58,252 nt of DNA from Candidatus Gastranaerophilales bacterium. GTDB taxonomy: Bacteria > Cyanobacteriota > Vampirovibrionia > Gastranaerophilales > Gastranaerophilaceae. The notes beneath the pieces were generated by a model that saw only the letters and a program-made list of their open reading frames with translations, searched no databases and was not told the origin of the DNA. Where the stretch lies: contig CALUQL010000003.1 of assembly GCA_944322895.1 (NCBI GenBank), positions 1 to 58,252 on the forward strand. The letters run 5' to 3'. The translations under genes were made by a program, and so were the position numbers. Shown here one piece after another: positions 5,431 through 34,936 of the stretch; the stretch's first letter is position 1; each line of letters opens with the position of its first letter.

Positions 5431-5432
5431 AT

Positions 5433-8343: not shown

Positions 8344-8360
8344 AAATATCCCCAATACTA

Positions 8361-13629: not shown

Positions 13630-13651
13630 TATTTTAACAATTTTTATTCTC

Positions 13652-13657: not shown

Positions 13658-13668
13658 AGAATTATTTT

Positions 13669-14409: not shown

Positions 14410-14430
14410 TTTGTGTTAAAGGAAAGATAT

Positions 14431-15267: not shown

Positions 15268-15278
15268 GGATTTTTATA

Positions 15279-16885: not shown

Positions 16886-17786
16886 TAGAAAAAAAATAAT
16901 AAAAGAAACAGTAAAAAAACACATTCCGCAGCGGCATTTATCATCAGTAAGAATAATGTACAGAATTGCAATGGAAACAATATACGGAATAAAAAGAACA
17001 GGATTAATTAATATTGCAATAATTGCTGCAATGGCTGCAATTTTGACTATTTTTGGTGCGCTTTTCAGAACAAGTTTTTCTTTAAGCTCTTTTGTTGACA
17101 AACTTGGTGATGCATTTGAAATTTCAGTATATTTGAAGCCAAATGTTGACCCTGTTTATATGTCATCAAGATTAAGGGAAATTGAGCACGTAAAAAAAAT
17201 AACAATAATCACAAAAGAACAAGCTTGGGAAGAAATGAATAAAGATATAGATGTAAGTGGAATGGAAAATCCGCTGCCGGATACATTACATGTTACAGTT
17301 GATGACCCTTCTAATATCACTGTTGTTTGTGACAGCATGAAAAAAGTCTCGGGTATAGAGAATATGTCTTATGCTCAAGAAATTGCTAAAAAATTACAAA
17401 CTCTTACTAACGTTTTCAATACAGTTACAGTTCTTGTACTTATTGCTGTTGCAATGTTGACTATAATAATAATAAATTGCACAATTCAACTTGTAATTCA
17501 ATCAAAAAAAGAAGAAATTGAAATTATGAGACTAATGGGCGTAAGTAATTGGTATATTAAAATACCTTTAATTCTTCAAGGTGCTATATATGGATTTTTA
17601 GGCGCAATAATTTCATTAATCCCATTAAATACGGTGCAAAATTGGCTTTTAAAATTACATACTTTCCTTAATGTACAGTCATCTGAGTTTGCAATGAATG
17701 TTGTAGTATTCTGCTTATTTATAATGGCTATATTCTTCAGTGCAGGGGGAAGTATGTTATCAATAAAGAAACATCTACAAGTGTAG
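16878..17786 (+). CDS. ftsX: Cell-division membrane protein FtsX
   Basis: 302 residues. The FtsX topology is visible: one helix near residues 43-63, a periplasmic domain of about 110 residues beginning DAFEISVYLKPNVD, then three helices including the MacB/FtsX-type segment with the cytoplasmic EEIEIMRLMGVSNWYI motif. It works with FtsE. The ATG at 16878 lies inside ftsE and is preceded by AGGCAGG. The stop is 25 bases from the end of the converging AAA gene, with no obvious terminator between. Confidence 0.93.
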   Translation: MNNRKKIIKETVKKHIPQRHLSSVRIMYRIAMETIYGIKRTGLINIAIIAAMAAILTIFGALFRTSFSLSSFVDKLGDAFEISVYLKPNVDPVYMSSRLREIEHVKKITIITKEQAWEEMNKDIDVSGMENPLPDTLHVTVDDPSNITVVCDSMKKVSGIENMSYAQEIAKKLQTLTNVFNTVTVLVLIAVAMLTIIIINCTIQLVIQSKKEEIEIMRLMGVSNWYIKIPLILQGAIYGFLGAIISLIPLNTVQNWLLKLHTFLNVQSSEFAMNVVVFCLFIMAIFFSAGGSMLSIKKHLQV

Positions 17787-17811
17787 TTTTATCTAAAAAT
17801 ACTTATTTAAA

Positions 17812-19848: not shown

Positions 19849-20937
19849 TCACATTTTAACAAGTGATTTTAATGAATTGCAAATAAATATTATTATAGAG
19901 TACGGTAATTCGAAGAATATTGTTGCAAGCTTTTTATTAATAGGTATATTAGGTTCAATTAATCTATATAATTTTTTATAAATCCTCATTTTTGAATATG
20001 TTTTTTTATCTTCAAGAACAGGTTTTTCTGTTATTTGAAATTCATTATCACATATTTCTTTATAATCTTTTTGATACCTATATGGGGTATATAAATCTAT
20101 ATATTGGTCTCCAATTAATTTTTCGTTTTTTGAAAATAAATATTTATTTAAATAAATGCCTGAATGTTTAAAATCTAGTATGATAAAATTGTTTAAAAGA
20201 CATTTTCTATATTTTTCCATTAGTTCATCTGAATAATCTGAAGTATCTTCCATATATATATCATTAAAGTTTCTTGCAAAGCAGGAGTATCCAAAATATT
20301 GTTCAGGTGCAAATTTGAATTTTACTTTACTATATGGAGTCAATTTTGTTTCATTTTTTTCTAAATTAAAATAATTTGTGAATTCAGGCTCTTTAACAAG
20401 TTCTGTCGCCAAAAAATAAGTTTCTAAATCTTCTCTTAAACCAAATAGCCACCAATCTGATATATGAAATGGTATACAAATCCTTTTTGTTAATTTTGCT
20501 TGTTTTATATAGCATCTGGTAAATAAAGTACTTGTTAAAACTTTATGTTTAAATAGATTATAATCCTCACTTCTCGCTTCAAACTTATCAAAATATTCTA
20601 AAAATTTAGCACTCGAAAGAATTAAATCACTTCTTAATTTCATTGCATATTTGCGTGTAGCCTTTTTTAGTCCGGCTTTTGTACTAATTAATTGTCGGTT
20701 TAAATTATTATAAACTTTTTTTGTTTTTGTTTCTTCTAATAAAGTTGCACCGGGGTCTTTGTTCAAAATTAAAATGTCGTATAATCCTTTAAGAGAAGAA
20801 ACATCTGAACCTTCCCATGTAGAAAGTATTATTTCTGCTTCAGGTAGGAATTGTCTTATGCTTATAAGACATTTTTTTGTTTCAGTTTTATTTATAGCAC
20901 CCTGCACTACAACAGAAATATCACTTGTATTAATCAC
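19849..20937 (-). CDS. WavE-family glycosyltransferase, copy 4 (last gene of island operon)
   Basis: 362 residues. WavE proteins build lipopolysaccharide core or related surface glycans. Shared motifs with the three other copies are DISVVVQGAI, LSTWEGSDV, LNKDPG, the basic KLRSDL segment and FAPEQYFGY. The C-terminal tail has a hydrophobic stretch (about 333-352) that may touch the membrane. The GTG at 20937 follows GGAG and gives MINTSDIS, matching the MINSNDIS start of the neighbouring copy; an upstream GTG at 20952 is the alternative. It begins 2 bases after the previous stop. Confidence 0.82.
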   Translation of the reverse strand: MINTSDISVVVQGAINKTETKKCLISIRQFLPEAEIILSTWEGSDVSSLKGLYDILILNKDPGATLLEETKTKKVYNNLNRQLISTKAGLKKATRKYAMKLRSDLILSSAKFLEYFDKFEARSEDYNLFKHKVLTSTLFTRCYIKQAKLTKRICIPFHISDWWLFGLREDLETYFLATELVKEPEFTNYFNLEKNETKLTPYSKVKFKFAPEQYFGYSCFARNFNDIYMEDTSDYSDELMEKYRKCLLNNFIILDFKHSGIYLNKYLFSKNEKLIGDQYIDLYTPYRYQKDYKEICDNEFQITEKPVLEDKKTYSKMRIYKKLYRLIEPNIPINKKLATIFFELPYSIIIFICNSLKSLVKM

Positions 20938-20939
20938 AA

Positions 20940-21971
20940 TTATTTTCTCCACTTGGTAATTAATACCATAAAAGCATAATAAATTATAGAGACTATTTGA
21001 CTAAGCCAAGAGTTTAGTGATTTAAGTGGAGTGATAAATTTTTGCCAATGTTTATCAAGCTGGTAGCTATAATTCTTTTTTTGTGTATTTATTTTGTAGT
21101 TATTATCGCAATATTGTGAATATTGTTCTTGGAAATGATTATATGTTATTAAACCAATTATTTTGTCTTGATTTTCATAAGCCCACTTATGTTTTTTTGA
21201 ATAAATTCCTGATTGTTCGTAATCAAGAAAAATAAAATTGTTATAGAGAATATTGTTAGAAAATTCAATATTTTCAGAATTCCAATCACTCCAATCGTAA
21301 AATTGAATATTGGGATAGTATTTTTTTACCCAATTTATACAAAAAGACTGCTCTGGAGCATATCTCCATAATGGAGTCGTATAAGGACAACGATTGGGAC
21401 ATTTAAAAGACCAATTTGATGCTTCTTCTTTAGTTTGTATTGGGCAATCGCAAAAATAATCTTTCAAATCTTCGGTAAATCCGAAAAACCAAAAATCTGA
21501 TGGATGGAATGGTGTTGGATATCCTGTTCCGCTCTGGCAAGAACATTCTCTTGAATAAGTAGAACTGCATAAAACTCTATGTTTAAATATCTTGTATTCA
21601 TCATTTTGTTTGTTAAACTTATCCCAGTATTTTATGAAGTTAGAGTTGTTAAGTTCCAAATCAGAACGGAGCTTCAAACAATATTTTCGGTTTGCTTTAA
21701 ATACCCCATTTTGGGCAGACACTAACTGTCTGTTAAAATTGTTCATTGAACGAGATTTATTATATATTGCAAAATCATGTTTATATCCGCCAGGGTCTTT
21801 ATTTAAAACTAATACATCATAATCTAAATTTGATACATCACTGCCTTCCCACGTTGAAAGTATAATTTCTGCATCTGGAAGATATTTTCTAATACTTTTT
21901 AAACATTTGGGAGTGTTTTCTTTATCTATTGCCCCCTGAACAACAACCGAAATATCATTTGAATTTATCAT
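20940..21971 (-). CDS. WavE-family glycosyltransferase, copy 3
   Basis: 343 residues, collinear with copies 1 and 4: DISVVVQGAID, LSTWEGSDVSN, VLNKDPGG, CLKLRSDLEL, PFHPSDFWFFG and YAPEQSF. A cysteine-rich stretch between about residues 145 and 205 (CSCQSG, CDCP, CPNRCP) is not seen in the other copies and could bind metal or form disulfides. The ATG at 21971 overlaps the previous stop as ATGA and has GGTGG upstream; a longer start at 21983 is possible. It is a cytoplasmic or membrane-peripheral enzyme of unknown donor. Confidence 0.82.
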   Translation of the reverse strand: MINSNDISVVVQGAIDKENTPKCLKSIRKYLPDAEIILSTWEGSDVSNLDYDVLVLNKDPGGYKHDFAIYNKSRSMNNFNRQLVSAQNGVFKANRKYCLKLRSDLELNNSNFIKYWDKFNKQNDEYKIFKHRVLCSSTYSRECSCQSGTGYPTPFHPSDFWFFGFTEDLKDYFCDCPIQTKEEASNWSFKCPNRCPYTTPLWRYAPEQSFCINWVKKYYPNIQFYDWSDWNSENIEFSNNILYNNFIFLDYEQSGIYSKKHKWAYENQDKIIGLITYNHFQEQYSQYCDNNYKINTQKKNYSYQLDKHWQKFITPLKSLNSWLSQIVSIIYYAFMVLITKWRK

Positions 21972-24010
21972 TGTAGCCACCATATTAACTTATAACTATT
22001 TGTTATAACTTTTAAGAGAATTTTTATCAGACATAATGGGATTTTTATTATAAAACTAAAAGGTTTTAGAATTTTTGCTATAAAATTAAATGGCTTTAAT
22101 AAATCTTTCAATTCTGTAATATATTTATTCAATCCGAAAACATCGTTTAAAGTCTCGTATTTAAATTCTTTTGGAATTTTATATGAAGAACTGATGTATT
22201 CTTTATATAATTCTAAATATCGTTTAGTTGTCAGCACATATTTAAAAGTGAATTTAGGGTGCTTTTTAAATTTTTTAGGGAACTTAATTCCGCTTTTTTT
22301 ATGATTTAAAACAAAGAAATTATTAATTATGGAATTCAAAGAGCATTCACTTGTGTATGGAGTATTATATAGACAAGTATCCATAAAAATACTCCAATTA
22401 TTTTTTTCTAAGCAATTTGTCCATAAGTATTGTTCAGGAGTCCTGTATTGATAATTTTTACCATTTATATTAACTATATATTGATTTTGTAATGGTATAT
22501 CAAAAAGCATCTCTAAATCTTCTTTCAAACCAAACATCCATATATCAGATGGATGAAAACATAACCCGACTTGTGTACAAGAATTATATTCAGAATTTCT
22601 TGTGAACAATGAATCTATTAATATTCTGTTTTTGAATACAGAGTATTCTTTAACTCTTTTTAAATTTTGCATAAGTCTAGAATTAAAATACTTGAGAAAG
22701 TTTGAATTTTTTATTAAACAATCTGTCCTTAATTTTAAAACATACTTGCGGTTTGCTTTTTTTATACCGTTTATTGTTGAAATAATTTGTCTATTAACAT
22801 TGTTTTTCTTCCAAGTTACAGGTTGCATATCAAAACCACCAGGATCACGACTTGAAACAAGAATATCATAATCCAGCTTATCAACATTTGTGTTTTCCCA
22901 AGTAGATAATACAATTTCTGCAGAAGGAAGATAACGCCTTATATTATGAATACAACTTTGTACTTGCTTCTTGTCTGAAATTTCACCTTGGATAACGACT
23001 GAGATATCTTTTGAATCTACTAATTTTAAAGGTTCTGGTTCTATATATGTTACTAAATCCTTTTTGATTAGTTGTGTAGTACCATAACGTTTGTAGTATT
23101 CACGCTGTAGTGTGAGAATTTGTGAAGGCAGAAGTTTTAAATTTTCTATTTTATCTTGAACTTTACCTATAATATCTTTTGTTTGTATTTTTTGTGTCAG
23201 AAAAGTTGGAATTTTATAAATATCGTTTTTTTCTAATCCTATAAAATCTACAATGTAATCCATTATAACTTCAGAATTTGTTATTAAATCTTCAAATCTT
23301 ATGACTTTAAAATTATCTGGGTATTTATTTTCTAAAACATTGCATAATTTCTCAGCATTGATAATTCCTGTGAATCTTTTATCTTTAAATATGGAATTGA
23401 AAGGATCTAAATTCTCATTAGCTAAACGATTTGCATAGGATAAAAACCAATCTTTTCTGTCTATATAAATAATTTTTATTTCAGGAATAAGATTAATTAA
23501 ATTTTCAAAATTACAAAATCCAGGTTCAGCAGCACTAACAAAATATTTGTAATTTTGTTGTGATGTATTTTTTAAATTTTTAATAAAAGATTTTAGAAAT
23601 AAGTTTAGCAGCGTTTGTACATTTATAGATTCATTATCCAGTTCGTTGATGCTTTCAAAAAATTCTTTTTCATGGTTGTAATAGTCAAAGTTAAATTCAA
23701 AAGTTTCAAATTTTTCTGATGATATAGGGAATACAATTTGTTTTTGCATTGAATATTGCTCAAGCATTGGGTAGTCTTGTTCTGATAGTAATTTGCGTAA
23801 TTGAATAATTCTTTCATCTTTGCCACCACGCCAACTTTTTTTAGTTTTGTATTCAGTGTTGAACCAAACCTGAAATTTATAAAAAATATCAATTAACATA
23901 TCATGCCACTGTGGAATAGTGAAAACGGACGGTGAATCTAAAAGTGAAATTAATGTTCCCTTTCCACATGTATATGGTCCGGTTACCATAATCGGTTTTA
24001 TATTGTTCAT
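21968..24010 (-). CDS. Sulfotransferase-WavE glycosyltransferase fusion (copy 2)
   Basis: 680 residues in two domains. Residues about 5-300 look like a PAPS-dependent sulfotransferase: 5'-phosphosulfate loop TGPYTCGKGTLISLL, 3'-phosphate segment IIYIDRKDWFLSYANR, and FKVIRFEDLITNSE in the usual third position. Residues about 333-600 are a full WavE domain (DISVVIQGEI, LSTWENTNV, SSRDPGG, VLKLRTDCL, RTPEQYLW). A hydrophobic C-terminus (about 650-675) suggests membrane association. The fusion implies that one polypeptide adds both a sugar and a sulfate (inference). It overlaps its neighbours by 4 bases at each end, so a sequencing-made join is unlikely. Confidence 0.85.
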   Translation of the reverse strand: MNNIKPIMVTGPYTCGKGTLISLLDSPSVFTIPQWHDMLIDIFYKFQVWFNTEYKTKKSWRGGKDERIIQLRKLLSEQDYPMLEQYSMQKQIVFPISSEKFETFEFNFDYYNHEKEFFESINELDNESINVQTLLNLFLKSFIKNLKNTSQQNYKYFVSAAEPGFCNFENLINLIPEIKIIYIDRKDWFLSYANRLANENLDPFNSIFKDKRFTGIINAEKLCNVLENKYPDNFKVIRFEDLITNSEVIMDYIVDFIGLEKNDIYKIPTFLTQKIQTKDIIGKVQDKIENLKLLPSQILTLQREYYKRYGTTQLIKKDLVTYIEPEPLKLVDSKDISVVIQGEISDKKQVQSCIHNIRRYLPSAEIVLSTWENTNVDKLDYDILVSSRDPGGFDMQPVTWKKNNVNRQIISTINGIKKANRKYVLKLRTDCLIKNSNFLKYFNSRLMQNLKRVKEYSVFKNRILIDSLFTRNSEYNSCTQVGLCFHPSDIWMFGLKEDLEMLFDIPLQNQYIVNINGKNYQYRTPEQYLWTNCLEKNNWSIFMDTCLYNTPYTSECSLNSIINNFFVLNHKKSGIKFPKKFKKHPKFTFKYVLTTKRYLELYKEYISSSYKIPKEFKYETLNDVFGLNKYITELKDLLKPFNFIAKILKPFSFIIKIPLCLIKILLKVITNSYKLIWWLQ

Positions 24011-24978
24011 TCATACCTCCTTTTGCAGTATTTTTCAATAATTTGTTTACAATTTTTATTTTTATAAATTATTCTATTTATTATCAAATATATTTTTCTT
24101 TTTATTATTGGATATTTAAAATCTGAATCACAATATTTTTTATATAAATTAAGCCAATCAAAAAAATTAATTGAATTCTTGAAATATTCATAATCTAATC
24201 CACAATACTCTGAACGATTTTTTTTCAAAAAGTATATTGGCATTTGAAAATGCGATAAAATCACGTAATTATTTGCAATAAATTTTTCTGAAATATCAAC
24301 AATTTCATTTGTATTGCAAAATCGATGATTAAATCCGATATTTCCGAATTCTTTTTTCAATGATTTATAACAAAGATACTGTTCGGGAAAATATTTTTGT
24401 GGATTTTGATAAAACCTTTTAGGTACTGACTCAGGAAATCCATCATAAAATGCACAATCCTCTTTTTTAATTAAGGGAATATCAAACATTTTAATTAAAT
24501 CCGTACTTAATCCAAAATAAATCCAATCGCCTATATGAAATGGTGTTGTTTCATCAAGATGCTTAAATTTACAAGGAAAAATATATGTTAATATTCTTTT
24601 TTCATATAATTTATAACTGTTATTTCTTTTATTAAATTTGTCGAAGTATTTTATAAATTTATTTGAAAGAAGTGCAATATCAGAACGAATTTTTATAGCA
24701 TAAAGTGTCTTTACATGTTTTAATCCGTTTAAACTCGAAACAATTTGTCTGTTTGTATTATCATAAAACTTATCTGAGAACTTAAATCCTCCTGGATCTT
24801 TATTTAAAACTAACTCATCAAAATCAAGACCCGTAACATCAGAAAATTCCCATGTTGATAAAATTATTTTTGAATTTTTAAAATATTTTCTTATAAATGA
24901 AATACACTTAGGTGTATTAATTTTATCAATAGCACCTTGAACAACAAACGTAATATCTTTATGTTTTATTTTTCCCAT
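24007..24978 (-). CDS. WavE-family glycosyltransferase, copy 1
   Basis: 323 residues. It is the first of the four WavE domains in transcription order: DITFVVQGAID (8-18), LSTWEFSDV, LVLNKDPGG, AIKIRSDIAL, PFHIGDWIYFG and YFPEQYLCY. It is the most diverged copy in the C-terminal third and ends with a lysine-rich tail. Its start overlaps the cytidylyltransferase gene by 13 bases and its stop overlaps the fusion gene by 4, so expression is tightly linked. Confidence 0.82.
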   Translation of the reverse strand: MGKIKHKDITFVVQGAIDKINTPKCISFIRKYFKNSKIILSTWEFSDVTGLDFDELVLNKDPGGFKFSDKFYDNTNRQIVSSLNGLKHVKTLYAIKIRSDIALLSNKFIKYFDKFNKRNNSYKLYEKRILTYIFPCKFKHLDETTPFHIGDWIYFGLSTDLIKMFDIPLIKKEDCAFYDGFPESVPKRFYQNPQKYFPEQYLCYKSLKKEFGNIGFNHRFCNTNEIVDISEKFIANNYVILSHFQMPIYFLKKNRSEYCGLDYEYFKNSINFFDWLNLYKKYCDSDFKYPIIKRKIYLIINRIIYKNKNCKQIIEKYCKRRYE

Positions 24979-25697
24979 AGCCTATTTTTTAACCAATTTC
25001 TTGTCATCTCAATATCAAGCTGAGAGTGTACATCTTTACCCGTTACCCAGTTTCTAATAATTGGGATACAATTATCACCCATCCACCACCAGCAAGCAGG
25101 ACCTGTTTTACCTCGTTCACAATTTACTAAAACAGAATATCGGACAGACCAAGGCCCCTGATCGTAAAAATAAATATCCGGATAACTCTGACGATTTGTA
25201 TCTGCATTTTTTAGGTCCAAGTATCCTTCTAAGTATCCTTTATTATTGATTTTCATTGCCCGGTACGGGTGATCATCCTGTGCTTGCCAGACTGTCATAC
25301 AGGAAGTCGCTTCTTCATTTTTGTTTAGGACTTCTATTGTTTTGTCAATATCTTCACCGCGATTGTATGCGGTATTGCCAAGTAAAATAGTTACAATATT
25401 GATTTCTTCACCCAGCATTTTTTCTGCCTCAATTGCTCCGTGTTTGATGGCATCTCCGTGGTTTGTCATTGCCTGTGCCAAATCTGCAGGGCGGTCAATG
25501 ATTTTTGCGTCATATCTGAGTGCTTCTGCCTTAATTAAAGGGCATTCTGTCGAAACAAAAACTTCATCAATATATTTAGCCTCTTTGGCGGCTGTCAGCT
25601 GCCACCCCAGAAATGTTTTCCCATCTATTTCTATTAAGTTTTTATTCTTTAATGTGGAATTACTTCCCTTAGCTGTTATTAATGCAATATTTTTCAT
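24966..25697 (-). CDS. Cytidylyltransferase-family protein (CMP-sugar synthetase-like)
   Basis: 243 residues resembling NeuA/KdsB-type enzymes that make CMP-activated acidic sugars. The N-terminal nucleotide loop is ITAKGSNSTLKNKNL, a variant of the usual ARGGSKGIPxKN, followed by FLGWQLTAA and EVFVSTEC. The C-terminal part has an unusual CWWWMGDNC segment and ends with DIEMTRNWL, where this family often has a metal-binding EID or DIE motif. The loop differences mean the base and sugar specificity are uncertain. The ATG follows GGGAGA. This gene and the next look less AT-rich than the WavE genes. Confidence 0.75.
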   Translation of the reverse strand: MKNIALITAKGSNSTLKNKNLIEIDGKTFLGWQLTAAKEAKYIDEVFVSTECPLIKAEALRYDAKIIDRPADLAQAMTNHGDAIKHGAIEAEKMLGEEINIVTILLGNTAYNRGEDIDKTIEVLNKNEEATSCMTVWQAQDDHPYRAMKINNKGYLEGYLDLKNADTNRQSYPDIYFYDQGPWSVRYSVLVNCERGKTGPACWWWMGDNCIPIIRNWVTGKDVHSQLDIEMTRNWLKNRLWEK

Positions 25698-25726
25698 ATT
25701 TAATCTCCCTGCTCAAAATCTAATAT

Positions 25727-26356
25727 CTATAACTCCACCCTGTTCGTTATAACTGTTCCTTCCGGAAATTCTGTTTTGCAGCCCGGAATTTTAATCCCTA
25801 AAAAGTTTAAATTACATTCTTTTGCCGCGTTATAGTCAGCCATAGCATCACCGATAAACAAACAATTTTGCGGCTTAAGACTGTATTTAGCAAGCAGTTC
25901 TTTAACCCACGGAGCTTTCTTTTTAGGCGAGCCGCAGATTTCTTTAAAGTATCCTGCAAGTCCTTTATTGGCTGCAATCTCTTTCATCTCATCAGTTGGT
26001 GTACCTGATACTACAAAAAGTATTGTACCTTTGTTGTATTCTTTTTTTATGGTTTCAACGGCTCCATCTATAAAAGGAGCATTTGCAACTTTTTCTTTAA
26101 CTAACTTTGAAAATTGATTTGATAATTCTTTAACTTTATTTTCATCAATTTCTATTCCAAGGAAATCTTTATAATATAATTTAAATTTCTCAAATCTGCT
26201 CATACCACCATTTTGGAGATGATGTTGTTTTACTTTTTCTTGAACTTCTTTTCCAAAATCAATAAACATATCATAATATGAGTCTGTTTTGATATTAACA
26301 GAATCTGTTATAACTCCATCCCAATCAAAAAATATAGCTTTATAATCTTTTTTCAT
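25727..26356 (-). CDS. HAD-superfamily phosphatase 1
   Basis: 209 residues. HAD motif I DWDGVITDS, motif II VVSGTP, the motif III lysine in SPKKKAPWV, and motif IV FIGDAMADYNAA are all present, with a helical cap between about residues 15 and 90. It probably removes a phosphate from a sugar or hydroxyacid intermediate before activation by the neighbouring cytidylyltransferase, as KdsC or NeuA-linked phosphatases do (inference). The start overlaps the upstream cyclase-family gene by 4 bases. Confidence 0.85.
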   Translation of the reverse strand: MKKDYKAIFFDWDGVITDSVNIKTDSYYDMFIDFGKEVQEKVKQHHLQNGGMSRFEKFKLYYKDFLGIEIDENKVKELSNQFSKLVKEKVANAPFIDGAVETIKKEYNKGTILFVVSGTPTDEMKEIAANKGLAGYFKEICGSPKKKAPWVKELLAKYSLKPQNCLFIGDAMADYNAAKECNLNFLGIKIPGCKTEFPEGTVITNRVEL

Positions 26357-26985
26357 CTGTTTACCTCTGCTATAACTGTTACCGGAACACCGTCTGCATT
26401 AGCGATTAATAACGGTGATACAATTACCCTATTTAATTCTCCTTCTGATACTTCATTTAATTTCATGTCTTCTATTATTAAAATTTCAGGAGTCGCTAGA
26501 AGAAGTTCTTTATGAGCTTGCCTGCCTTCATCTTTATTTTTATATGCGTTTATAGAAATGCTATTTATTCCAATTGCTCTTAAGTTCTTATATTTTTCTT
26601 TTAAGTGTTTTACCGTGTTAACCCCTACCCCTGTATTATTCGTGGCATACTCATCACTGTATCTTTCAGGAGTGTTTAAAAGTTTAATAATTATTAAATC
26701 TGTTTTATCAGGTATCTCTTTTAAATCTTCTGGTTGAATATAATTACTGTTGCTGTCAACTTCTAAAACATATGGATTATAAAAAATAAAATCTTTTATG
26801 TTGTAATCTGAAAGTGATTTTCCGCCTTCTTTTACATGTAAAGGAAAATCAATGTGAGTAGAAGAATGAGCGGGAAAATTCAATAACAGCTCATTATTTT
26901 TATATAGTGATATATTAATACTCTTTTCATTATTGTAGCAACTAAGATTATTATTTAATATATGCGAAAGACATATTATCTTCAT
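26353..26985 (-). CDS. Cyclase-family (kynurenine-formamidase-like) metal hydrolase
   Basis: 210 residues. The metal-binding motif HSSTHIDFPLH (about 40-50) is the family HxGTHxDxPxH with the glycine replaced by serine. The rest follows the fold (LIIIKL, GVGVNTVKHL, AIGINSISI). Members hydrolyse formamides, lactones or related bonds, or close rings in polyketides; the substrate here is unknown. Inside a glycan operon it may act on an acyl or hydroxyacid substituent (inference). A GGAAAA site precedes the ATG, which lies 35 bases inside the SDR gene. Confidence 0.75.
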   Translation of the reverse strand: MKIICLSHILNNNLSCYNNEKSINISLYKNNELLLNFPAHSSTHIDFPLHVKEGGKSLSDYNIKDFIFYNPYVLEVDSNSNYIQPEDLKEIPDKTDLIIIKLLNTPERYSDEYATNNTGVGVNTVKHLKEKYKNLRAIGINSISINAYKNKDEGRQAHKELLLATPEILIIEDMKLNEVSEGELNRVIVSPLLIANADGVPVTVIAEVNR

Positions 26986-27859
26986 GTAAATTTTCCTTTT
27001 TTGCTACTTCTTTTATTAATTCAATAAGTCCTTGTCCTATATCAATATATGGATTTGTAATTATTTTTTTGCCTATTTTAGGCATATAACTATATGGTGT
27101 TATATTGTAGTGTAATGGATTTTTGTTACCAAGATATTCAACAGGTACATCTTTTTTTAGAATTTCTTTAATCATTTCGATTAAATCCTTCATTCTCATT
27201 TTTTCTGAACCTGTTAAAATTAAGCATTCGTTTTTGAATTTTTCATCTAGACAGTGAACGCTTATTTTGGCTGCATCTATTATATTTATAAACTCTCTCA
27301 TTTCTTCGCCTGTACCGTCATATGAAAATTTATCATTTGTTAAAATATTTTTTATAATTCGATAGCAACCGTTTTTTTCATTTGAACGGCTGCCATATAA
27401 AGTGCCATAACGTAAAATTGTGTAGTTTAAATTATTATTTTTACCATAATTTTCAATTATATCTTCACATGCTTTTTTGCTTGCAGCATAAAACCCGCCT
27501 TTATCTGATTGTACATAAACAGTTGAAGCAAACATAAATCTTTTTACATTGTTTTTTAAACTGGCTTCAATTAAATTTGTTGTACCAATGATATTTGTTA
27601 AAATGGTGTCATAAGGCGTTTTGTTTGCTATATCAATATCTGCAATAGCTCCGAAATGATAAACATAATCAACACCTTTTGTTATTTGATCTAAAAGATT
27701 TTTATCTAATAAATCACCAATAACCATAGATTGATTTTTCTTTTGATATGGAGAATTATTTCTATCAAAGAGAATTACATCAAAATTGTTTAATGTAAGT
27801 TCATCTGCAATATGACTTCCAACAAAACCAGAAGCCCCTGTGACTAAAACATTTGGCAT
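26951..27859 (-). CDS. Extended SDR, nucleotide-sugar epimerase/dehydratase family
   Basis: 302 residues. NAD-binding VTGASGFVGSHIA at the N-terminus, then VYHFGAIAD, a STVY serine and the catalytic YAASK tyrosine-lysine pair, with an RYGTLYG segment typical of extended SDRs. It likely changes the stereochemistry or oxidation of a nucleotide-linked sugar in the cytosol. The exact activity (4-epimerase, dehydratase or reductase) is not readable. It shares one base with the upstream dehydrogenase gene. Confidence 0.85.
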   Translation of the reverse strand: MPNVLVTGASGFVGSHIADELTLNNFDVILFDRNNSPYQKKNQSMVIGDLLDKNLLDQITKGVDYVYHFGAIADIDIANKTPYDTILTNIIGTTNLIEASLKNNVKRFMFASTVYVQSDKGGFYAASKKACEDIIENYGKNNNLNYTILRYGTLYGSRSNEKNGCYRIIKNILTNDKFSYDGTGEEMREFINIIDAAKISVHCLDEKFKNECLILTGSEKMRMKDLIEMIKEILKKDVPVEYLGNKNPLHYNITPYSYMPKIGKKIITNPYIDIGQGLIELIKEVAKKENLHEDNMSFAYIK

Positions 27860-28770
27860 TATAGCACCTCTAAAATATTTTTAATTGAATCAAGCTCTTG
27901 TTTTAATCTTGCCTCAGAAGCATATGAACCTATGTGTGATGTAAGTAGTACATTATTAAAATTAATCAGTTCACCCTTATATGGTTCTTGTTCAAAACAA
28001 TCTATGCCGGCTCCATTAATAATATTATTTTCCAATGCATAAATTAAATCATTTTCATTTACTAAGCCGCCTCTTGAAATATTTAATAACAGCGCATTTT
28101 TCTTCATCTTTTTTAATACATCTATATTTATAATATATTTGTTTTCAGGTGTATATGGAATATGTAGTGATACAATATCTGCATTTTTTATTACTTCATC
28201 AAATGATTTTAGACTAATTAAATTATGTGTGCTGATATATGGGTCAAACCCGATTATTTCACATTCAAATGGTTGTAATAATTTTGCTAAGTGCGTTGCT
28301 ATCCTTCCACACCCAATTAAACCTATTGTTTTTTTATTAAGCAAACTTCCCATTGGTTTTTCAAATTCGCCATTTCTTATTGATTTATCAGCAAAAGAAA
28401 TTTTTCTTAATAGATTTAAAATGACTCCTAAAGTTAATTCGGCAACAGGCATTGTTGGTGCATCAGGAGTATTTGTTATCGGAAGATTAATTTTTTTTGC
28501 ATACTCTAAATCAATTCCATCCATGCCCACTCCACAACGAGAAATCATTTTTACATAAGGTTTCATTATATCAAGTGCTTTAGATGTAATTTTCTCAGTA
28601 CCGGCAATTAGATATTCTGGTTTATGTTCATTAATTAAATCTATAAGTTCCTCTTCTGTAAGTTTTCTACCAAAAGGATTAATAATATATTCTAAACCGT
28701 TATTTTTCATTAACTCTAAGGGCTCAGTGTTATTTTTGCCAAAACTTGACGTAGTAATTAAAACCTTCAT
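27859..28770 (-). CDS. D-3-phosphoglycerate dehydrogenase-like 2-hydroxyacid dehydrogenase
   Basis: 303 residues. Rossmann motif IGLIGCGRIATH, catalytic arginine in NISRGGLV, glutamate in EQEPYKGE and histidine in LTSHIGSY are intact; there is no C-terminal ACT domain. This SerA-like enzyme inside a glycan operon suggests formation or use of a hydroxy or keto acid, such as a glyceric or phosphoglyceric substituent, instead of serine synthesis (inference). Genes on both sides abut without spacing. Confidence 0.85.
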   Translation of the reverse strand: MKVLITTSSFGKNNTEPLELMKNNGLEYIINPFGRKLTEEELIDLINEHKPEYLIAGTEKITSKALDIMKPYVKMISRCGVGMDGIDLEYAKKINLPITNTPDAPTMPVAELTLGVILNLLRKISFADKSIRNGEFEKPMGSLLNKKTIGLIGCGRIATHLAKLLQPFECEIIGFDPYISTHNLISLKSFDEVIKNADIVSLHIPYTPENKYIINIDVLKKMKKNALLLNISRGGLVNENDLIYALENNIINGAGIDCFEQEPYKGELINFNNVLLTSHIGSYASEARLKQELDSIKNILEVL

Positions 28771-29100
28771 CTATATTTCTCCTATATACTTATCATTATT
28801 AGCGCCAGGGTATTTAACTACAACATTTTGAGTGCCATCTTCTAAACATTCAAAATCTGTTGCTTCATTTGGTTCCATTACTATGATGTCACCTTTTTTA
28901 TACTCTATACCGTTCATTTTGACTCTGCCTTGAGTAATTACGGTAATTTCTGTTGCAATTTTATGATAATGTTTTTCTTCGTAATCGCCTTTTTTATATT
29001 CTTTAACTGCAACTTCTACATCATTGGTTTTGATTAATGTTGGTTCAAAATTTCCTACAAACCAACCTTTTATCATATCTTCAAGTCTAGTTGTTTTCAT
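28771..29100 (-). CDS. Cupin-domain protein, copy A
   Basis: 109 residues forming a single small beta-barrel. The metal-type motif is KHYHKIATEITVITQG followed by the second motif around GDIIVMEPNEATDF. It could be a sugar isomerase or epimerase or a metal-dependent hydroxyacid enzyme; nothing fixes the reaction. It is almost identical to copy B at 30789: only two residues differ before the last four or five. Adjacent genes abut with no gap. Confidence 0.8.
   Translation of the reverse strand: MKTTRLEDMIKGWFVGNFEPTLIKTNDVEVAVKEYKKGDYEEKHYHKIATEITVITQGRVKMNGIEYKKGDIIVMEPNEATDFECLEDGTQNVVVKYPGANNDKYIGEI
28787..29100. repeat. Direct repeat, copy A (cupin gene)
   Basis: About 314 bases nearly identical to 30811-31124, in the same orientation, offset by exactly 2,024 bases at both ends. 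I count about 11 mismatches, all in the half encoding the protein N-terminus; the half nearest 28787 is identical. This pattern fits a recent duplication or gene conversion. Confidence 0.9.
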
Positions 29101-30063
29101 TTAATATCCGTTTCTTATTTTTACTTTTAAAACTTTGTTAGGAATAAAGCATGATAAAATATATCTTACTTTATTTTTATATTTATTTTCTGGAAGAAGC
29201 TGATCACTGGGAAGTTCCCCTCTATCCAGATGTATAAGTATAAAGATTTTATTTTTTCTTCCGACCAACCTTGTAATCTCTTTATGTTTTTCGGGAGTCG
29301 CTATATTCATATATTTAGTCATAAAATCAACACAAATCGTGTAAAATTTTGAAGCACAGCCATTATATATATTAAGAAAATTCCGAGGTTTAAAACTATG
29401 GTATAAAAGTAAGTAATACATATACATGTAATAATCAAAATGCCAAAAGGTTAATTTTGTTATGTTTTCTTTTAGATTTGTTTTTATGAAGAAATCTTCA
29501 ATAGTACTTGCCTTATAAATACAAAGATTGTTAAACCATAAATCAAGACCATCATCTTTAATTCTATCTTTTTCTTCAAAAAAGTCAGAGGCATACTTTG
29601 TCATTTTAGACATATTATCAGATTTACCATGATATTGTAAGACTCCCCATAATATTTTATTGCTGAAAAATGTTTCACAAACTTCAAGCAAATCGATATT
29701 TTTGATTATTAAACTTTCTGAGTCTAAAACAATAATATAATCATATCTGTCTTTAAGTTCATAAACCCCGTAAAGTTTTTTTACATTTATGATTCCTCGT
29801 TCTCTATTTATGTCTTTTAAATTATCAGGCAAAACAATAGAACCGTATTTTGTATTGCAAGCTTTTTTATCTTCCTCATTTGAAAATACAAAATAAAAAT
29901 CTGCTTGCTTATCTAATTTGTAATATTCAAATGATTCCAGAAAATTTTTCGCATACTCAAAATGTGGTGGATGTATTGGCATTAAAAATGCGATTTTTCG
30001 CTCTTTTATTTCTTTTTTATGCCTTATAAAATCAACAAATTTTTGACCTGCCGTAAACTTCAC
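29101..30063 (-). CDS. Putative GT-A-type glycosyltransferase between the cupin repeats
   Basis: 320 residues. The N-terminal half has a GT-A look: a strand with IAFLMPIHPPHFEYAKNFL, then DYIIVLDSESLI near residue 110, where DSES sits in the place of a DxD metal-binding motif. Aromatic-rich segments (FWHFDYYMYMYYLLLY) follow. No family is assigned with certainty. The start is GTG, strongly supported by AAGGAGGT 5 bases upstream, the best ribosome site in this operon. The other island glycosyltransferases are WavE-type and share no visible motif with it. Confidence 0.55.
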   Translation of the reverse strand: MKFTAGQKFVDFIRHKKEIKERKIAFLMPIHPPHFEYAKNFLESFEYYKLDKQADFYFVFSNEEDKKACNTKYGSIVLPDNLKDINRERGIINVKKLYGVYELKDRYDYIIVLDSESLIIKNIDLLEVCETFFSNKILWGVLQYHGKSDNMSKMTKYASDFFEEKDRIKDDGLDLWFNNLCIYKASTIEDFFIKTNLKENITKLTFWHFDYYMYMYYLLLYHSFKPRNFLNIYNGCASKFYTICVDFMTKYMNIATPEKHKEITRLVGRKNKIFILIHLDRGELPSDQLLPENKYKNKVRYILSCFIPNKVLKVKIRNGY

Positions 30064-30133
30064 AATACCTCCTTATTAAAGTAATGTATGTAGCTTTAAA
30101 GTATACCATTGTTCTTATTTGATTTTTACATAG

Positions 30134-30796
30134 TTATATTTCTTTTAACTCGCATAATATTTTTTCTTTTTGTTTTTCAATTTCTGCTAATTGTGGTTGT
30201 ATTTTTTTATAGGCTTCTTCAAAACTGGTTATATGATAGTCATTTTCAAGATGTAAATACATCGTCAATTTTTTCATTACCAGCATATTTACTCCCTGTG
30301 CAAACTTCCATAATTGTTGTTTAAAGTTGTTTAAACATTCAATCAGCAGTGAATGTTCTTTCTTAGAGTAAAAAATAAAAAGGGACAGATTTTTATTAAA
30401 CAAACGGTATTTATTTGTAATTTCAATATCAATTCTGGATCGTTCTTTGCGGTTTGCCTCAACAGATTTGCCAATTTCTTCATATATATCAGGATTTAAT
30501 TCTGATATCTGAGAAACTGATAAATCTTCATAACAATGCATTCTAAGTGTACTGACAAGATCAATTATTGAATATACAAGATCCCTTTTAGCATCTTCAT
30601 ATTTTTCACTTTTAATTGTTTTTTGCCAATCGTTTTTAGCAATATAACCAAGAATTAACAAACCCAATGAGCATAAAAAACTAAAAAATGCAATTACATT
30701 GGCGCATAAATCGTTGCAATTACAAAACTGATGCCGAATATGCTCATAGTTATCATACAAAAATATGTTTAATAAATTCAAAATATCATTATTCAT
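30134..30796 (-). CDS. Single-pass membrane protein of unknown function
   Basis: 220 residues, not recognised. An N-terminal segment of about 30 residues with several cysteines (CNCNDLC) precedes one strong membrane helix (about 32-52). A long charged, mostly helical region follows and ends in a probable coiled coil (AEIEKQKEKILCELKEI). It looks like a membrane-tethered accessory protein. It lies inside the 2-kb cassette between the two cupin copies and overlaps copy B by 8 bases. A 70-base gap to the next gene is the largest in the operon. Confidence 0.65.
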   Translation of the reverse strand: MNNDILNLLNIFLYDNYEHIRHQFCNCNDLCANVIAFFSFLCSLGLLILGYIAKNDWQKTIKSEKYEDAKRDLVYSIIDLVSTLRMHCYEDLSVSQISELNPDIYEEIGKSVEANRKERSRIDIEITNKYRLFNKNLSLFIFYSKKEHSLLIECLNNFKQQLWKFAQGVNMLVMKKLTMYLHLENDYHITSFEEAYKKIQPQLAEIEKQKEKILCELKEI

Positions 30797-31124
30797 TAGA
30801 AGCTCCTAAATACTTATCATTATTAGCGCCAGGGTATTTAACTACAACATTTTGAGTGCCATCTTCTAAACATTCAAAATCTGTTGCTTCATTTGGTTCC
30901 ATTACTATGATGTCACCTTTTTTATACTCTATACCGTTCATTTTGACTCTGCCTTGAGTAATTACGGTAATTTCAGTTGCAATTTTATGATAATGTTTTT
31001 CTTCGTAATCGCCTTTTTTGTATTCTTTTACTGCAACTTCAACATCGTTTGTTTTAATTAATGTTGGTTCAAAATTTCCTACAAACCAACCTTTTATCAT
31101 ATCTTCAAGTTTTGCGGTTTTCAT
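30789..31124 (-). CDS. Cupin-domain protein, copy B
   Basis: 111 residues, identical to copy A except at residues 4-5 (AK for TR) and the C-terminal tail (LGASNE for IGEI). The same cupin motifs are present. Two such similar copies in one operon either give extra dosage or form the scar of a cassette insertion. Its start overlaps the acyltransferase gene by 4 bases. Confidence 0.8.
   Translation of the reverse strand: MKTAKLEDMIKGWFVGNFEPTLIKTNDVEVAVKEYKKGDYEEKHYHKIATEITVITQGRVKMNGIEYKKGDIIVMEPNEATDFECLEDGTQNVVVKYPGANNDKYLGASNE
30811..31124. repeat. Direct repeat, copy B (cupin gene)
   Basis: Partner of the repeat at 28787-29100. Homologous recombination between the two would remove 2,024 bases carrying the glycosyltransferase and the membrane-protein gene and leave one intact cupin reading frame. 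Confidence 0.9.
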
Positions 31125-32179
31125 CTATTAAGCTCCATTCTATTTGGTAAATCCTCTATAAAAATTTTATATAATTTTCTGCTGGGAACTTCTATAACAT
31201 GGTATGCAATTATTCCTAAGATCGTAGAGCTTATTATAAATAATGTAACGTAAATGTATCCGCTTATTTGTTGTGATGGATGCAAGAATATCCAGGGAAT
31301 ATTTTGCATAACATAAATAGAAAGACTATATTTGCTTATAGGGTACAAATTAACTTTATTTAATACTTTTGAAAAATAGCCGGCATTATTTACCATGCAA
31401 ATAATCAAAAAAGAAAAAAGGAAAATGTATAAAACCATATTACGTGGCGCTTCTGCGTACTTAATGCAGGCTAAATTAATTATTAAATAAAAAAATAAAA
31501 ATAATTCTAAAATTGTGAAAAATATTTTGTTTTTTATACTTTTTATATTTTCTGGGTTATAAAAATTCAAGCGTATTAAAATTCCAATACCAATACTGAT
31601 TATTCCCCTAAGTATACCAATATTGAAAATACCGTATGCATTATGTGTTTGGATCCCTACATCATTTGTATACATAACAAGCGCAAAATAAATAATCAGC
31701 ACAACTGTAAAATTAAATTTTAATTTGTCTTTTATTATATTTAATAAACAGTAATAAAAACAGGAACACCAGAACAAAACAAACAGAAACCAACAAGCTC
31801 CTAATAGTGCTACCTGTGAACTTTTGAGACCAATATGAGACAACAGCAAGAAATCCGGCAATATTTCATAAAAATGTTTATGAAAATGGAAAATATTGAC
31901 AAAAACTGTAGCAAAGAATGCAACCGGAAACAATCTTATGATTCTGGTAACGGCAAAATCTTTAAAGGTGGTTCTTTTTACAAGTATATTAGGCAGGAAA
32001 AAACCTGCAATAATGAAAAAACACTCTACAAAAACCCAACACATCCGGAAATAAGGATAAATTATTCTTGGCTCATCAATTATATGAAGAGCATGAAACA
32101 CCAGTATCAGAATTACCCCTATAATACGGAGCAATTCAATGGAGTTAAGTTTTGAGTATATTTTTTGTACCTGTTCCAT
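31121..32179 (-). CDS. Acyltransferase family 3 (OafA-like) membrane protein
   Basis: 352 residues with about ten membrane helices. The family signatures are at the N-terminus: SIELLRIIGVILILVFH with the catalytic-type histidine, FVECFFIIAGF, and the basic TRIIRLFP. Members O-acetylate or otherwise acylate surface sugars from the cytoplasmic face. Codons begin directly after the nucleotidyltransferase stop with no gap. Confidence 0.88.
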   Translation of the reverse strand: MEQVQKIYSKLNSIELLRIIGVILILVFHALHIIDEPRIIYPYFRMCWVFVECFFIIAGFFLPNILVKRTTFKDFAVTRIIRLFPVAFFATVFVNIFHFHKHFYEILPDFLLLSHIGLKSSQVALLGACWFLFVLFWCSCFYYCLLNIIKDKLKFNFTVVLIIYFALVMYTNDVGIQTHNAYGIFNIGILRGIISIGIGILIRLNFYNPENIKSIKNKIFFTILELFLFFYLIINLACIKYAEAPRNMVLYIFLFSFLIICMVNNAGYFSKVLNKVNLYPISKYSLSIYVMQNIPWIFLHPSQQISGYIYVTLFIISSTILGIIAYHVIEVPSRKLYKIFIEDLPNRMELNR

Positions 32180-32923
32180 TTATCTTAAAGATCCCAGTTT
32201 ATCTTTTACCCCTTCTATATATTTATCCAAGTCATCCGGTGTTCCGGTTCCGTGCATTTGAGTTTTATCAATTGAATAAATTCCGAATTTTCCGCCTTTT
32301 TCTATTGCATAGTTATATACTGGGGCTACATAAAATTCGTTATTTACTCTTTCATTTCGAACAAACATGTCAATAGCATTTTCAACAAAGTCAGAACCTT
32401 TTTTAAAGTAATAAATTCCAACTGTTGCGTGTTCTGAAATTACTTCTTTTTCTCTAATCATTGTAATTAATTTATTTTCATCTAATTTTGCATAAGACCA
32501 TTTAGAATCTGAATCTTCAAAACAAAGAACTGAACCATCAAGATTTCTATTGTCTGAATCACTAATATAATCAGCAATATCCATATCGACAATCTGATCT
32601 GAGTTTGCTATCAACATAGGGGTATCGTTGTTTATTAATCTATGTGCATGTAATACAGTGCACGCTGCACCCTCTGTTAATTTATCTATTAAAACAAATT
32701 CTACATTGTAATTATTTTTAATCCAATTAACAGTCTCTTGCTCATTATTATAGTGTTCTTTTCTTGCAAGCAAGATAAACTTTGCATTTTGCATATTTAA
32801 ATTATCAAGTACGTGACAAATCATAGGTTTACCCAACACATCTATAAATGGTTTTGGTTTTTTATATCCTGCTTTTGCAAATCTTGAACCGGCTCCTGCC
32901 ATCGGTATTACAATATTAATCAT
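32180..32923 (-). CDS. Sugar nucleotidylyltransferase-like protein 1
   Basis: 247 residues. The GT-A-like nucleotidyltransferase loop IPMAGAGSRFAKAGYKKPKPFI is intact (G-x-G-S-R and the PKP lysine). IANSDQIVDMD provides the acidic metal site and FYVAPVYNYAI is a typical C-terminal segment. It should couple a sugar or polyol phosphate to NTP, giving an activated precursor for this glycan. A related protein follows upstream at 32939. Confidence 0.85.
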   Translation of the reverse strand: MINIVIPMAGAGSRFAKAGYKKPKPFIDVLGKPMICHVLDNLNMQNAKFILLARKEHYNNEQETVNWIKNNYNVEFVLIDKLTEGAACTVLHAHRLINNDTPMLIANSDQIVDMDIADYISDSDNRNLDGSVLCFEDSDSKWSYAKLDENKLITMIREKEVISEHATVGIYYFKKGSDFVENAIDMFVRNERVNNEFYVAPVYNYAIEKGGKFGIYSIDKTQMHGTGTPDDLDKYIEGVKDKLGSLR

Positions 32924-32938
32924 TTTTAATCCTCTTTT

Positions 32939-33655
32939 TTACCCTTTCCTGTGTGCCAAGTAATTTTCATACATTTGATAGTTTGAAAAAGTTATATAAT
33001 CTTTTTTTGGAATTTCAAAAATTCCAATTTTCTTATTATTTAAAATCATTTCATTAAATGTTGAGCTGATGTAATATTGACCTTGTGTATTAACATCTTT
33101 TTCTATAACTGAAAAAGCAGCAGAAATAAAATCAGAACCTTTTTTATAATAGCAGCAACCTGTTGAAGCTATATTGGAAATCGGACGCTTTTCGCTTGTC
33201 TGTATAACAAGATTATTTTCATCTAATAATACAGAACTATACTTTGGATGAACAGCATTAATCGTTACAATACCGCCGTCAAGATTCCTTTTTCTAAAAT
33301 CCTCTATAGCTGGGGCAATACTTGTTTTTATTAATTGGCTGCCATTTATCAATAAAAGTTCTTCACTATTGTTTATTTCATCTATTGCAAATAAGGCAGA
33401 ACATACAGCACCTTTTGTATCTCCTGCAACCTCAATAATTTTACATTTAGGACAAAGAATTTTTAGGGTATCGCCCAGAAAATACTTTTCTTGATCCTCT
33501 TTTCTAATAATGCAAGTTATATTTTCACTAAATGTTTCTAATAATTCAATTGTCCTTTGTATCATTGGTTTATTCTGTATTTCTATTAAATACTTTGGAT
33601 AACCTTTTTCGCTAAAGTCTTTTTCTGAACCTGCCATTAAAATTAATATATTCAT
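32939..33655 (-). CDS. Nucleotidyltransferase-like protein 2 with altered active-site loop
   Basis: 238 residues, homologous to the neighbouring protein along its length (GYPKYLIEIQNKPMIQRTIELL, TKGAVCSALFAIDEI, LLINGSQLI, GQYYISSTFNEMI). The catalytic G-x-G-S-R loop is replaced by AGSEKDF, so the arginine is missing. It may be a regulatory or inactive partner of protein 1, or have a different activity. Its ATG shares one base with the stop of the HAD gene. Confidence 0.75.
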   Translation of the reverse strand: MNILILMAGSEKDFSEKGYPKYLIEIQNKPMIQRTIELLETFSENITCIIRKEDQEKYFLGDTLKILCPKCKIIEVAGDTKGAVCSALFAIDEINNSEELLLINGSQLIKTSIAPAIEDFRKRNLDGGIVTINAVHPKYSSVLLDENNLVIQTSEKRPISNIASTGCCYYKKGSDFISAAFSVIEKDVNTQGQYYISSTFNEMILNNKKIGIFEIPKKDYITFSNYQMYENYLAHRKG

Positions 33656-34329
33656 TATTTGGCACCCCCAATACTTAAAATTTTTCCTTCAAAAGAAATA
33701 TCTCCGCTTTCAATTTCTCTAATACGATTTTTAATATTTTGATATGTTACATCATTTACGGTGTCTACTTTTAAAAGATTTGCTCCACTGGCAAGTGCTG
33801 CCTTAATTCCGTTTTGATTGTCTTCAACTATTAAGCATTCTTCAGGTTTTAAACCGAATCTGCTAATTGCTTTTATATATATTTCTGGATCGGGTTTTGA
33901 CTTTGTTACATCTTGATTTGATAATGTAAAATCAAGATATTTTTGTAAGTCAGCTTTTTCCATCATCATATCAATTGTTACTCTTACTGAATTTGAAGCT
34001 AATGCAAGACCATAACCTTCTGATTTTAATTTTGATAATGCATACTGATGGCAAAACAAAGGTTTGCACTTCATATATACGTGTTCCATTGTATATTTTT
34101 GCTTTATTTCATTGATAAACTTATGTAATCCTTTGGGTAAACCTTTTTCAATTGAAAGCATTTCTAATTTTTTCTTTGTTGGTAGTCCATCAAAAGTAAC
34201 AAGGTGATCATATCTTGAAATTTTAAATCCAAATAGTTCTAATGCTTGATTTAATGCTTCATAGTGCCAATCTTTTGCATCTATTAGAACTCCATCCATA
34301 TCAAATATTACAGCTTTTATTTTACTCAT
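33655..34329 (-). CDS. HAD-superfamily phosphatase/phosphomutase 2
   Basis: 224 residues of the beta-phosphoglucomutase/phosphatase type. Motif I is FDMDGVLID, motif II LASNSVR, motif III KSKPDPEIY and motif IV IVEDNQNGIKAA. A helical cap occupies about residues 15-80. It likely acts on a sugar phosphate feeding the two nucleotidyltransferases. It overlaps the GDPD-family gene by 8 bases. Confidence 0.87.
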   Translation of the reverse strand: MSKIKAVIFDMDGVLIDAKDWHYEALNQALELFGFKISRYDHLVTFDGLPTKKKLEMLSIEKGLPKGLHKFINEIKQKYTMEHVYMKCKPLFCHQYALSKLKSEGYGLALASNSVRVTIDMMMEKADLQKYLDFTLSNQDVTKSKPDPEIYIKAISRFGLKPEECLIVEDNQNGIKAALASGANLLKVDTVNDVTYQNIKNRIREIESGDISFEGKILSIGGAK

Positions 34330-34936
34330 CGAAAAACTCCTTAGCTTCCATTGGATAATCAGTGCAAATCATTATTTCTTTTATGTTTTTATATCTTTCC
34401 CAAATATTTTTATGTGCACGTTTGTGCAAATCCGGTGATACAATACAAACTTGTTTGTTTTGTTTTAAAATGTCAATGATATCAATTTCGCCAAACCAAT
34501 CAGAATTAAAACAATCTAACCAAATACCTTGTGCTTCATCTAGCATTATTGGATTTTTAATAATATCGCTTTTACCCGTGAAAATCTTTAAACCTAATTT
34601 ATGCTGATAGACCATTTCTGGTATGCTCATATCAAAAGTAAAATAATTTTCGTGATTATACTTTTCGAGTAAGCGTTTTATTTCATCCGCTAGTCCATCT
34701 GCCTTTATATTTAATGCCAATGTTAAATTTCTTCCGTCTAATATTTTTAGTAATTCTTCGAAAGACAACTCATTACCGCAAGGCATATTATGTGATATTA
34801 CTATTTCTCCTTTATAATCTCTTAAATCCGTTTCTATGCCAAAATTATTATCAAATGCTCTTTTAAAAGCAGTTTCAGCATTTTTCTCTTCTTCTTTTAA
34901 CCAATAACCTCTATGTGCAATTATTTTTGAATACAA
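34322..34936 (-). CDS. Glycerophosphodiester phosphodiesterase-family protein (first gene of island operon)
   Basis: 204 residues, short for the family (usually about 240-300). IAHRGYW (5-11) carries the catalytic histidine and arginine, GIETDLRDYKGEIVISHN holds the metal-binding E-x-D and second histidine, and further family residues follow to ICTDYPMEA. Members split glycerophosphodiesters into glycerol 3-phosphate and an alcohol; here it may supply or trim a glycerol phosphate unit (inference). The start is TTG with AAAGGATG upstream; HRG so near the N-terminus leaves no room for a later start. Confidence 0.8.
   Translation of the reverse strand: MYSKIIAHRGYWLKEEEKNAETAFKRAFDNNFGIETDLRDYKGEIVISHNMPCGNELSFEELLKILDGRNLTLALNIKADGLADEIKRLLEKYNHENYFTFDMSIPEMVYQHKLGLKIFTGKSDIIKNPIMLDEAQGIWLDCFNSDWFGEIDIIDILKQNKQVCIVSPDLHKRAHKNIWERYKNIKEIMICTDYPMEAKEFFDE

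Follow-up and report, generated by a model that had tools for sequence, protein, structure and literature searches.

We analyzed a window of 58,252 nucleotides (the whole stretch of DNA considered here) from Candidatus Gastranaerophilales bacterium (GCA_944322895.1, contig CALUQL010000003.1, positions 1 to 58,252); in the 2.15 Mb assembly, this is contig C3. Its minus strand carries an operon-like run of 18 open reading frames (34936-19849 in the ORF list), which appears to encode the synthesis of a surface glycan. The gap is zero or negative at 14 of the 17 junctions, and the remaining gaps are 15, 29, and 70 bp, in agreement with an earlier interpretation made from the letters alone (hereafter the sequence-only reading), which described an 18-gene operon with an overlap or abutment at almost every junction. 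In consensus scans, promoter-like sites were fewer than in shuffled sequences (109 versus 130.9), and terminator-like matches were also rarer than in the shuffles. Since promoter-like sites are few and the sole terminator-like match on the minus strand lies inside g16, the 18 genes likely form a single transcription unit. The genes, in the order of transcription and with E-values of their domain matches, are as follows.

g1, 34322..34936, minus strand: GDPD/PI-PLC-like enzyme, module A; motif HRG...ETD...SHN found by eye
g2, 33655..34329, minus strand: HAD1 phosphatase of the beta-phosphoglucomutase type, module A; HAD_2 2.3e-36
g3, 32939..33655, minus strand: NTa, NTP_transferase fold, probably inactive, module A; NTP_transferase 1.5e-5
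g4, 32180..32923, minus strand: NTb, NTP_transferase, module A; NTP_transferase 3e-14, intact MAGAGSRF signature
g5, 31121..32179, minus strand: membrane O-acyltransferase; Acyl_transf_3 3.9e-19
g6, 30789..31124, minus strand: cupin copy A, module A; near-identical to g9
g7, 30134..30796, minus strand: uncharacterized, one membrane segment by eye; no Pfam or NCBIfam match
g8, 29101..30063, minus strand: uncharacterized, glycosyltransferase-like by eye; no Pfam match, 48% identical homolog in locus L006
g9, 28771..29100, minus strand: cupin copy B, module A
g10, 27859..28770, minus strand: SerA-like D-2-hydroxyacid dehydrogenase, module B; 2-Hacid_dh_C 1.1e-51
g11, 26951..27859, minus strand: extended SDR, module B; Epimerase 3.2e-42
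g12, 26353..26985, minus strand: cyclase-family metal hydrolase, module B; PF04199 4.9e-12
g13, 25727..26356, minus strand: HAD2 phosphatase, module B; Hydrolase 2e-16
g14, 24966..25697, minus strand: NeuA-like cytidine monophosphate (CMP)-acid synthetase, module B; CTP_transf_3 6.1e-10
g15, 24007..24978, minus strand: WavE-family transferase; WavE 1.4e-49
g16, 21968..24010, minus strand: sulfotransferase-like domain (about residues 1-310) fused to WavE; WavE 8.3e-47
g17, 20940..21983, minus strand: WavE-family transferase; WavE 1e-53
g18, 19849..20952, minus strand: WavE-family transferase; WavE 2.7e-50

Pfam matches over the cut-off were obtained for HAD_2 (two proteins), NTP_transferase (two), Acyl_transf_3, 2-Hacid_dh, Epimerase (the SDR), Cyclase (PF04199), CTP_transf_3, and WavE (four), which bears out the two HADs, SerA-like dehydrogenase, cyclase-family hydrolase, SDR, CMP-synthetase-like enzyme, acyltransferase, and WavE proteins of the sequence-only reading. 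No Pfam match over the cut-off was found for g1, both cupins, g7, or g8.

The operon consists of two modules that are found independently of each other. Module A comprises the GDPD-like, HAD1, NTa, NTb, cupin, and WavE genes, and module B comprises the genes for the SerA-like dehydrogenase, SDR, cyclase-family hydrolase (Cyc), HAD2, and NeuA-like CMP-synthetase. The module boundaries were defined by mapping all 18 proteins onto 11 loci obtained from a g14 scan of genome contigs; several of the comparison loci are contigs of metagenome-assembled genomes (MAGs) that end inside the cluster. Colinear blocks of the same genes in other phyla indicate a gene set beyond chance assembly. Locus L006, where the match positions are the same as in the same-family genome G086, has almost all of these genes, arranged as GDPD, HAD1, NTa, NTb, g8, cupin, SerA, SDR, Cyc, HAD2, acyltransferase, and CMP-synthetase, followed by WavE and sulfotransferase-like genes, and L005 and L007 hold parts of such a set. 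L005 (CALVJV010000027.1) is binned as an uncultured Clostridia, and its SerA, SDR, cyclase, and fusion protein are 100% identical to those of the window; this contig probably comes from a Gastranaerophilales genome and was put in the wrong bin.

Module B is syntenic in the Gastranaerophilales-type loci L005-L007, in Akkermansia (L008), and in Campylobacterota (L040). The Akkermansia MAG encodes SerA, SDR, a Cyc-HAD2 fusion, and the CMP-synthetase with no module A gene, and L040, which belongs to the same class as the Helicobacteraceae MAG L009, has the five module B genes, all separate, with module A not nearby. In an Elusimicrobia MAG (L011), CMP-synthetase, SerA, and SDR genes are adjacent, and the contig stops within SDR. 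NTa had no match anywhere in the genomes of L008-L012. On plasmids, NTa relatives have GDPD-like, HAD1, and NTb genes as neighbors, frequently along with a cupin and WavE, in alpha- and gammaproteobacterial hosts (Ruegeria, Azospirillum, Pseudomonas aeruginosa, two Rhizobium, Acetobacter, and Tropicibacter), and a Scandinavium plasmid carries the module A set without a separate NTa. GDPD-like, HAD1, and NTb-like genes occur together in 8 of the 10 plasmid loci examined, and none of these module A loci contains module B. NTa relatives were not found among viral contigs, the cyclase-family protein had no match on plasmids, and the CMP-synthetase gave one weak match each on plasmids and on phages. 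The synteny comparison that the sequence-only reading proposed thus recovered colinear blocks in other phyla, but as two separable modules: modules A and B occur apart and need not form the one pathway to which that reading assigned all the genes.

The catalytic residues of the module B enzymes are conserved. In g10, Arg233, Glu262, and His279, which we take to be the catalytic Arg/Glu/His as in phosphoglycerate dehydrogenase, and the nucleotide-binding glycines (GCGRI) are invariant in seven sequences. A second D-2-hydroxyacid dehydrogenase-like gene, recognized by eye, lies outside the operon at 2039-3019. Ser112, Tyr124, and Lys128 of g11 are invariant in the alignment across loci. The metal motif of g12, HxxTHxDxPxH (His40, Thr43, His44, Asp46, Pro48, and His50), and a second site (His158 and Glu172) are also invariant, and the window copy has Ser in place of the Gly of the family motif HxGTHxDxPxH; the profile matches of g12 in the PDB are kynurenine formamidases. 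g13 is 38% identical to the HAD protein of locus L045, a cluster with an aldolase gene. g14 matches PseF (1.1e-14, NCBIfam, under the curated equivalog cut-off) and NeuA in the PDB (2e-12) and resembles KdsB only weakly. Its motifs KN, NRQ, and DxH are invariant in 14 sequences; the last differs from the DxD metal motif of NeuA.

Module A seems to contain one working nucleotidyltransferase. NTb retains the GxGxR signature (MAGAGSRF) and the metal Asp (NSDQ). In the window copy of NTa, the signature is changed to GSEKDF and the metal Asp is replaced (NGSQ), although some NTa relatives retain more of the signature. With neither the Arg of the signature nor the metal-binding Asp, NTa is probably inactive, and only NTb is likely to be active; both proteins are NTP_transferases by Pfam, as previously called, but NTa has lost its signature residues. 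A HAD1-NTb fusion is encoded beside glycosyltransferase genes in the Synechococcus phages S-CAM9 and S-PRM1 (L055 6341-7726 and L056 4341-5726). g2 has homologs with 56-64% identity in the alpha-/gammaproteobacterial loci. The earlier assignment of g1 to the GDPD family holds in part: its motif and the GDPD enzymes that it weakly matches in the PDB (E 0.03-0.2) agree with it, but g1 and four homologs gave no Pfam match over the cut-off. The g1 homologs in the plasmid loci are 30-46% identical. The two cupin genes, which flank g7-g8, are identical at 311 of 330 nucleotides and differ at 19, which suggests a recent duplication or gene conversion. Both window cupins are below the Pfam threshold, but a 57% identical homolog passes Cupin_2. 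Homologs of g6 occur in the plasmid loci of Ruegeria, Acetobacter, P. aeruginosa, and Scandinavium. The g8 homolog in L006 likewise stands before a cupin gene.

Apart from the four WavE domains of the operon, none was found in this genome. Since WavE is found alongside module A where module B is absent, it is the likeliest candidate that we infer for the transferase of the module A product. The sulfotransferase named in the sequence-only reading is not a gene of its own but the N-terminal part of g16, fused to WavE. The window copy scores 23.3 bits against Sulfotransfer_3, under the 27-bit cut-off, while all four domains homologous to the g16 N-terminus match this family (best E 4e-8); a profile search of the PDB with this domain found no sulfotransferase. 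The position of the acyltransferase gene (g5 homologs) varies between loci.

The operon may have been acquired horizontally. The ftsX and AAA ATPase genes (16851-19239) are kept in genus relatives (ftsX 85-99.7% identical), and the operon genes are absent after them in the genus relatives examined; in one of these, L083, a different surface polysaccharide cluster (2315-18122) lies beside the AAA gene. A close g14 was found in 2 of the 241 order genomes sampled, this one and G086, and a third, G008, has a distant g14 relative of the aldolase type. Since close g14 genes are this rare and the locus lacks operon genes in genus relatives, the operon has a sporadic distribution and occupies a variable locus, as would fit horizontal gain. 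Elsewhere in the same genome, a KdsB-like gene lies on contig C25 and KdsA on C2. Two candidate NeuB matches coincide with DAHP-synthase-type (3-deoxy-D-arabino-heptulosonate 7-phosphate synthase) genes and were rejected, as was a possible third cytidylyltransferase, because the other CTP_transf_3 match is GlmU. Since KdsB is encoded elsewhere and this other match is GlmU, g14 is an extra CMP-synthetase. Apart from the operon, the window encodes three related radical SAM-like proteins, recognized by eye from their Cys motifs (42-2037 and 47878-48969), the third of which has homologs in L085 and L087, and an MsbA-like ABC transporter (45973-47901; TIGR02203 8.1e-155, under the curated cut-off). 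An ABC transporter gene is also found just past the L006 cluster (17243-19030).

A clue to the product of module B comes from L040, where the gene directly upstream of SerA belongs to the CST-I/GT42 alpha-2,3-sialyltransferase family (PF06002, 4.2e-21, over the cut-off). This neighbor of module B and the NeuA/PseF-like character of g14 favor a 2-keto acid sugar linked to CMP. MptE-like proteins, 35% identical to each other, are encoded near the CMP-synthetase in L008 and L010; BLASTP did not tie them to GT42. We consider, with a probability of roughly 0.5, that the operon, through two modules inherited independently of each other, makes a surface glycan that is acidic, acylated, and probably sulfated, and that module B provides a CMP-activated 2-keto (ulosonic) acid. 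This reading builds on direct observations: the gene sets, the boundaries of the modules, the conservation of catalytic residues, and the GT42 neighbor. It agrees with the sequence-only reading that the operon serves a surface glycan and involves an activated acid, acylation by an acyltransferase, and a sulfotransferase-like domain; the activated acid, however, is more likely ulosonic than the glycerol-phosphate or simple hydroxyacid proposed there.

In the proposed mechanism, the SDR would first act on a sugar that is phosphorylated or linked to a nucleotide, by oxidation or epimerization. The cyclase-family hydrolase would then open a lactone-type intermediate, and the SerA-like dehydrogenase would oxidize the aldonic (2-hydroxy) acid so formed to its 2-keto form. 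HAD2 would remove a phosphate, and the NeuA-like enzyme would place CMP on the 2-hydroxyl group. The SerA-like dehydrogenase would thus stand in for the phosphoenolpyruvate (PEP)- or pyruvate-dependent enzyme that forms the carbon-carbon bond of Kdo and sialic acids. Module A may supply a second nucleotide-activated unit through HAD1 and NTb, which NTa would assist without catalysis; the GDPD-like enzyme and cupin would help to supply or process this unit, and the WavE-family proteins would transfer it. More specifically and only tentatively, well short of even odds, module B may be a mobile CMP-ulosonate route of at least three, probably four phyla, based on SerA-like oxidation of an aldonic acid with no PEP/pyruvate aldol step.

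Relatives of g14 with 33, 30, and 36% identity sit with aldolase genes in L045 (6910-12689), L046 (6536-17032), and L049 (7360-11073), respectively. The aldolase is of the HpcH/HpaI type in L045 (by Pfam) and L046 (by sequence) and HMGL-like in L049. All three clusters carry further NeuA-like genes, and L045 and L046 also have a HAD2-like gene. These uncharacterized clusters possibly represent an alternative front end for CMP-activated acids: they have a pyruvate-type aldolase where module B has the SerA-like dehydrogenase and cyclase-family hydrolase. The two types would share a common logic of 2-keto acid formation, dephosphorylation, and CMP transfer, in which the dehydrogenase and hydrolase plausibly replace the aldolase step.

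Several observations weigh against a CMP-ulosonate product and the route proposed for it. Pfam revealed no GT42 gene among the 18 genes of the operon. The nearest PDB entries of g11 by profile are nucleoside diphosphate (NDP)-sugar epimerase-type enzymes rather than aldose C1 dehydrogenases, which weakens the lactone scheme, and the cyclase-family proteins that have both a name and a structure hydrolyze amides, whereas g12 would putatively open a lactone. The L009 and L010 genomes, both MAGs, encode a CMP-synthetase with 65-66% identity but no cassette SerA at E 1e-40; therefore, this enzyme does not strictly depend on the dehydrogenase. The substrates and products of all genes, as well as the step order, are those that we infer.

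The last of these genomic observations suits a scheme in which module B only tailors an acid made by the KdsA route or another synthase, which SerA or SDR oxidizes or epimerizes before activation by g14. The presence of KdsA in the genome and of an SDR gene beside the CMP-synthetase in the aldolase-type clusters also fits, but the genome already has a separate KdsB and no true NeuB, and the five module B genes travel together wherever the dehydrogenase occurs; we regard tailoring as rather unlikely. The shared operon of the SerA-like enzyme, HADs, GDPD-like enzyme, and cytidylyltransferase could instead reflect a single pathway in which a glycerate- or glycerol-phosphate-like unit is activated with cytidine diphosphate (CDP) or CMP and added to a sulfated glycan. 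This is unlikely, given that the GDPD and nucleotidyltransferase genes are inherited separately from the SerA and CMP-synthetase genes and that the cytidylyltransferase is NeuA/PseF-like with a GT42 gene adjoining module B in L040. About as unlikely is a loose mosaic, in which surface-modification genes share no joint product and are packed tightly because the genome is compact: near-identical cupin duplicates, the shifting acyltransferase, and the variable locus in relatives would be expected of a mosaic, but L006 preserves the gene order over most of the run, and L005 and L007 do so over part of it.

A CMP-activated ulosonic acid as the module B product invites comparison with known systems. 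To our knowledge, the characterized CMP-activated acid sugars (Kdo, sialic, pseudaminic, and legionaminic acids) are all made by the addition of a PEP unit to a sugar. Module B resembles the CMP-sialic and other nonulosonic acid pathways (NeuB-NeuA, PseI-PseF, and the legionaminic acid pathway) in its NeuA/PseF-like CMP-synthetase and, in one phylum, in the sialyltransferase gene beside the cassette. Those pathways use a NeuB-type synthase, however, which is missing from the operon and has no true match in the genome; the operon has the SerA-like dehydrogenase and cyclase-family hydrolase instead. With the CMP-Kdo pathway (KdsA-KdsC-KdsB), module B would share a HAD phosphatase and the CMP activation of a 2-keto acid, but KdsA and KdsB are encoded outside the operon. 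The WavE plasmid loci of Ruegeria, P. aeruginosa, and Azospirillum combine module A genes with WavE as in the window, but they lack module B, and one WavE of the window is fused to the sulfotransferase-like domain. Hex-2-ulosonic acids do occur in bacterial capsules: the E. coli K3 capsule contains a 4-deoxy-2-hexulosonic acid, according to a reference in PMC10433991, which is a parallel in the type of sugar. Searches of the open-access literature for the gene combinations and for CMP-ulosonate routes turned up no characterized cluster that matches either module, which is weak evidence of novelty but agrees with the sequence-only reading, in which the combination was not recognized as a described pathway.

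Module B appears to be an undescribed route by which an acidic, sialic-acid-like sugar of the cell surface is synthesized and activated. If this is true, it would be a different entry to CMP-activated surface acid sugars in several phyla, in which the HAD and CMP-synthetase steps are kept and the synthase is swapped for a dehydrogenase and a metal hydrolase. The split into two transferable modules makes each of them testable on its own and places the WavE-family proteins in a functional context.

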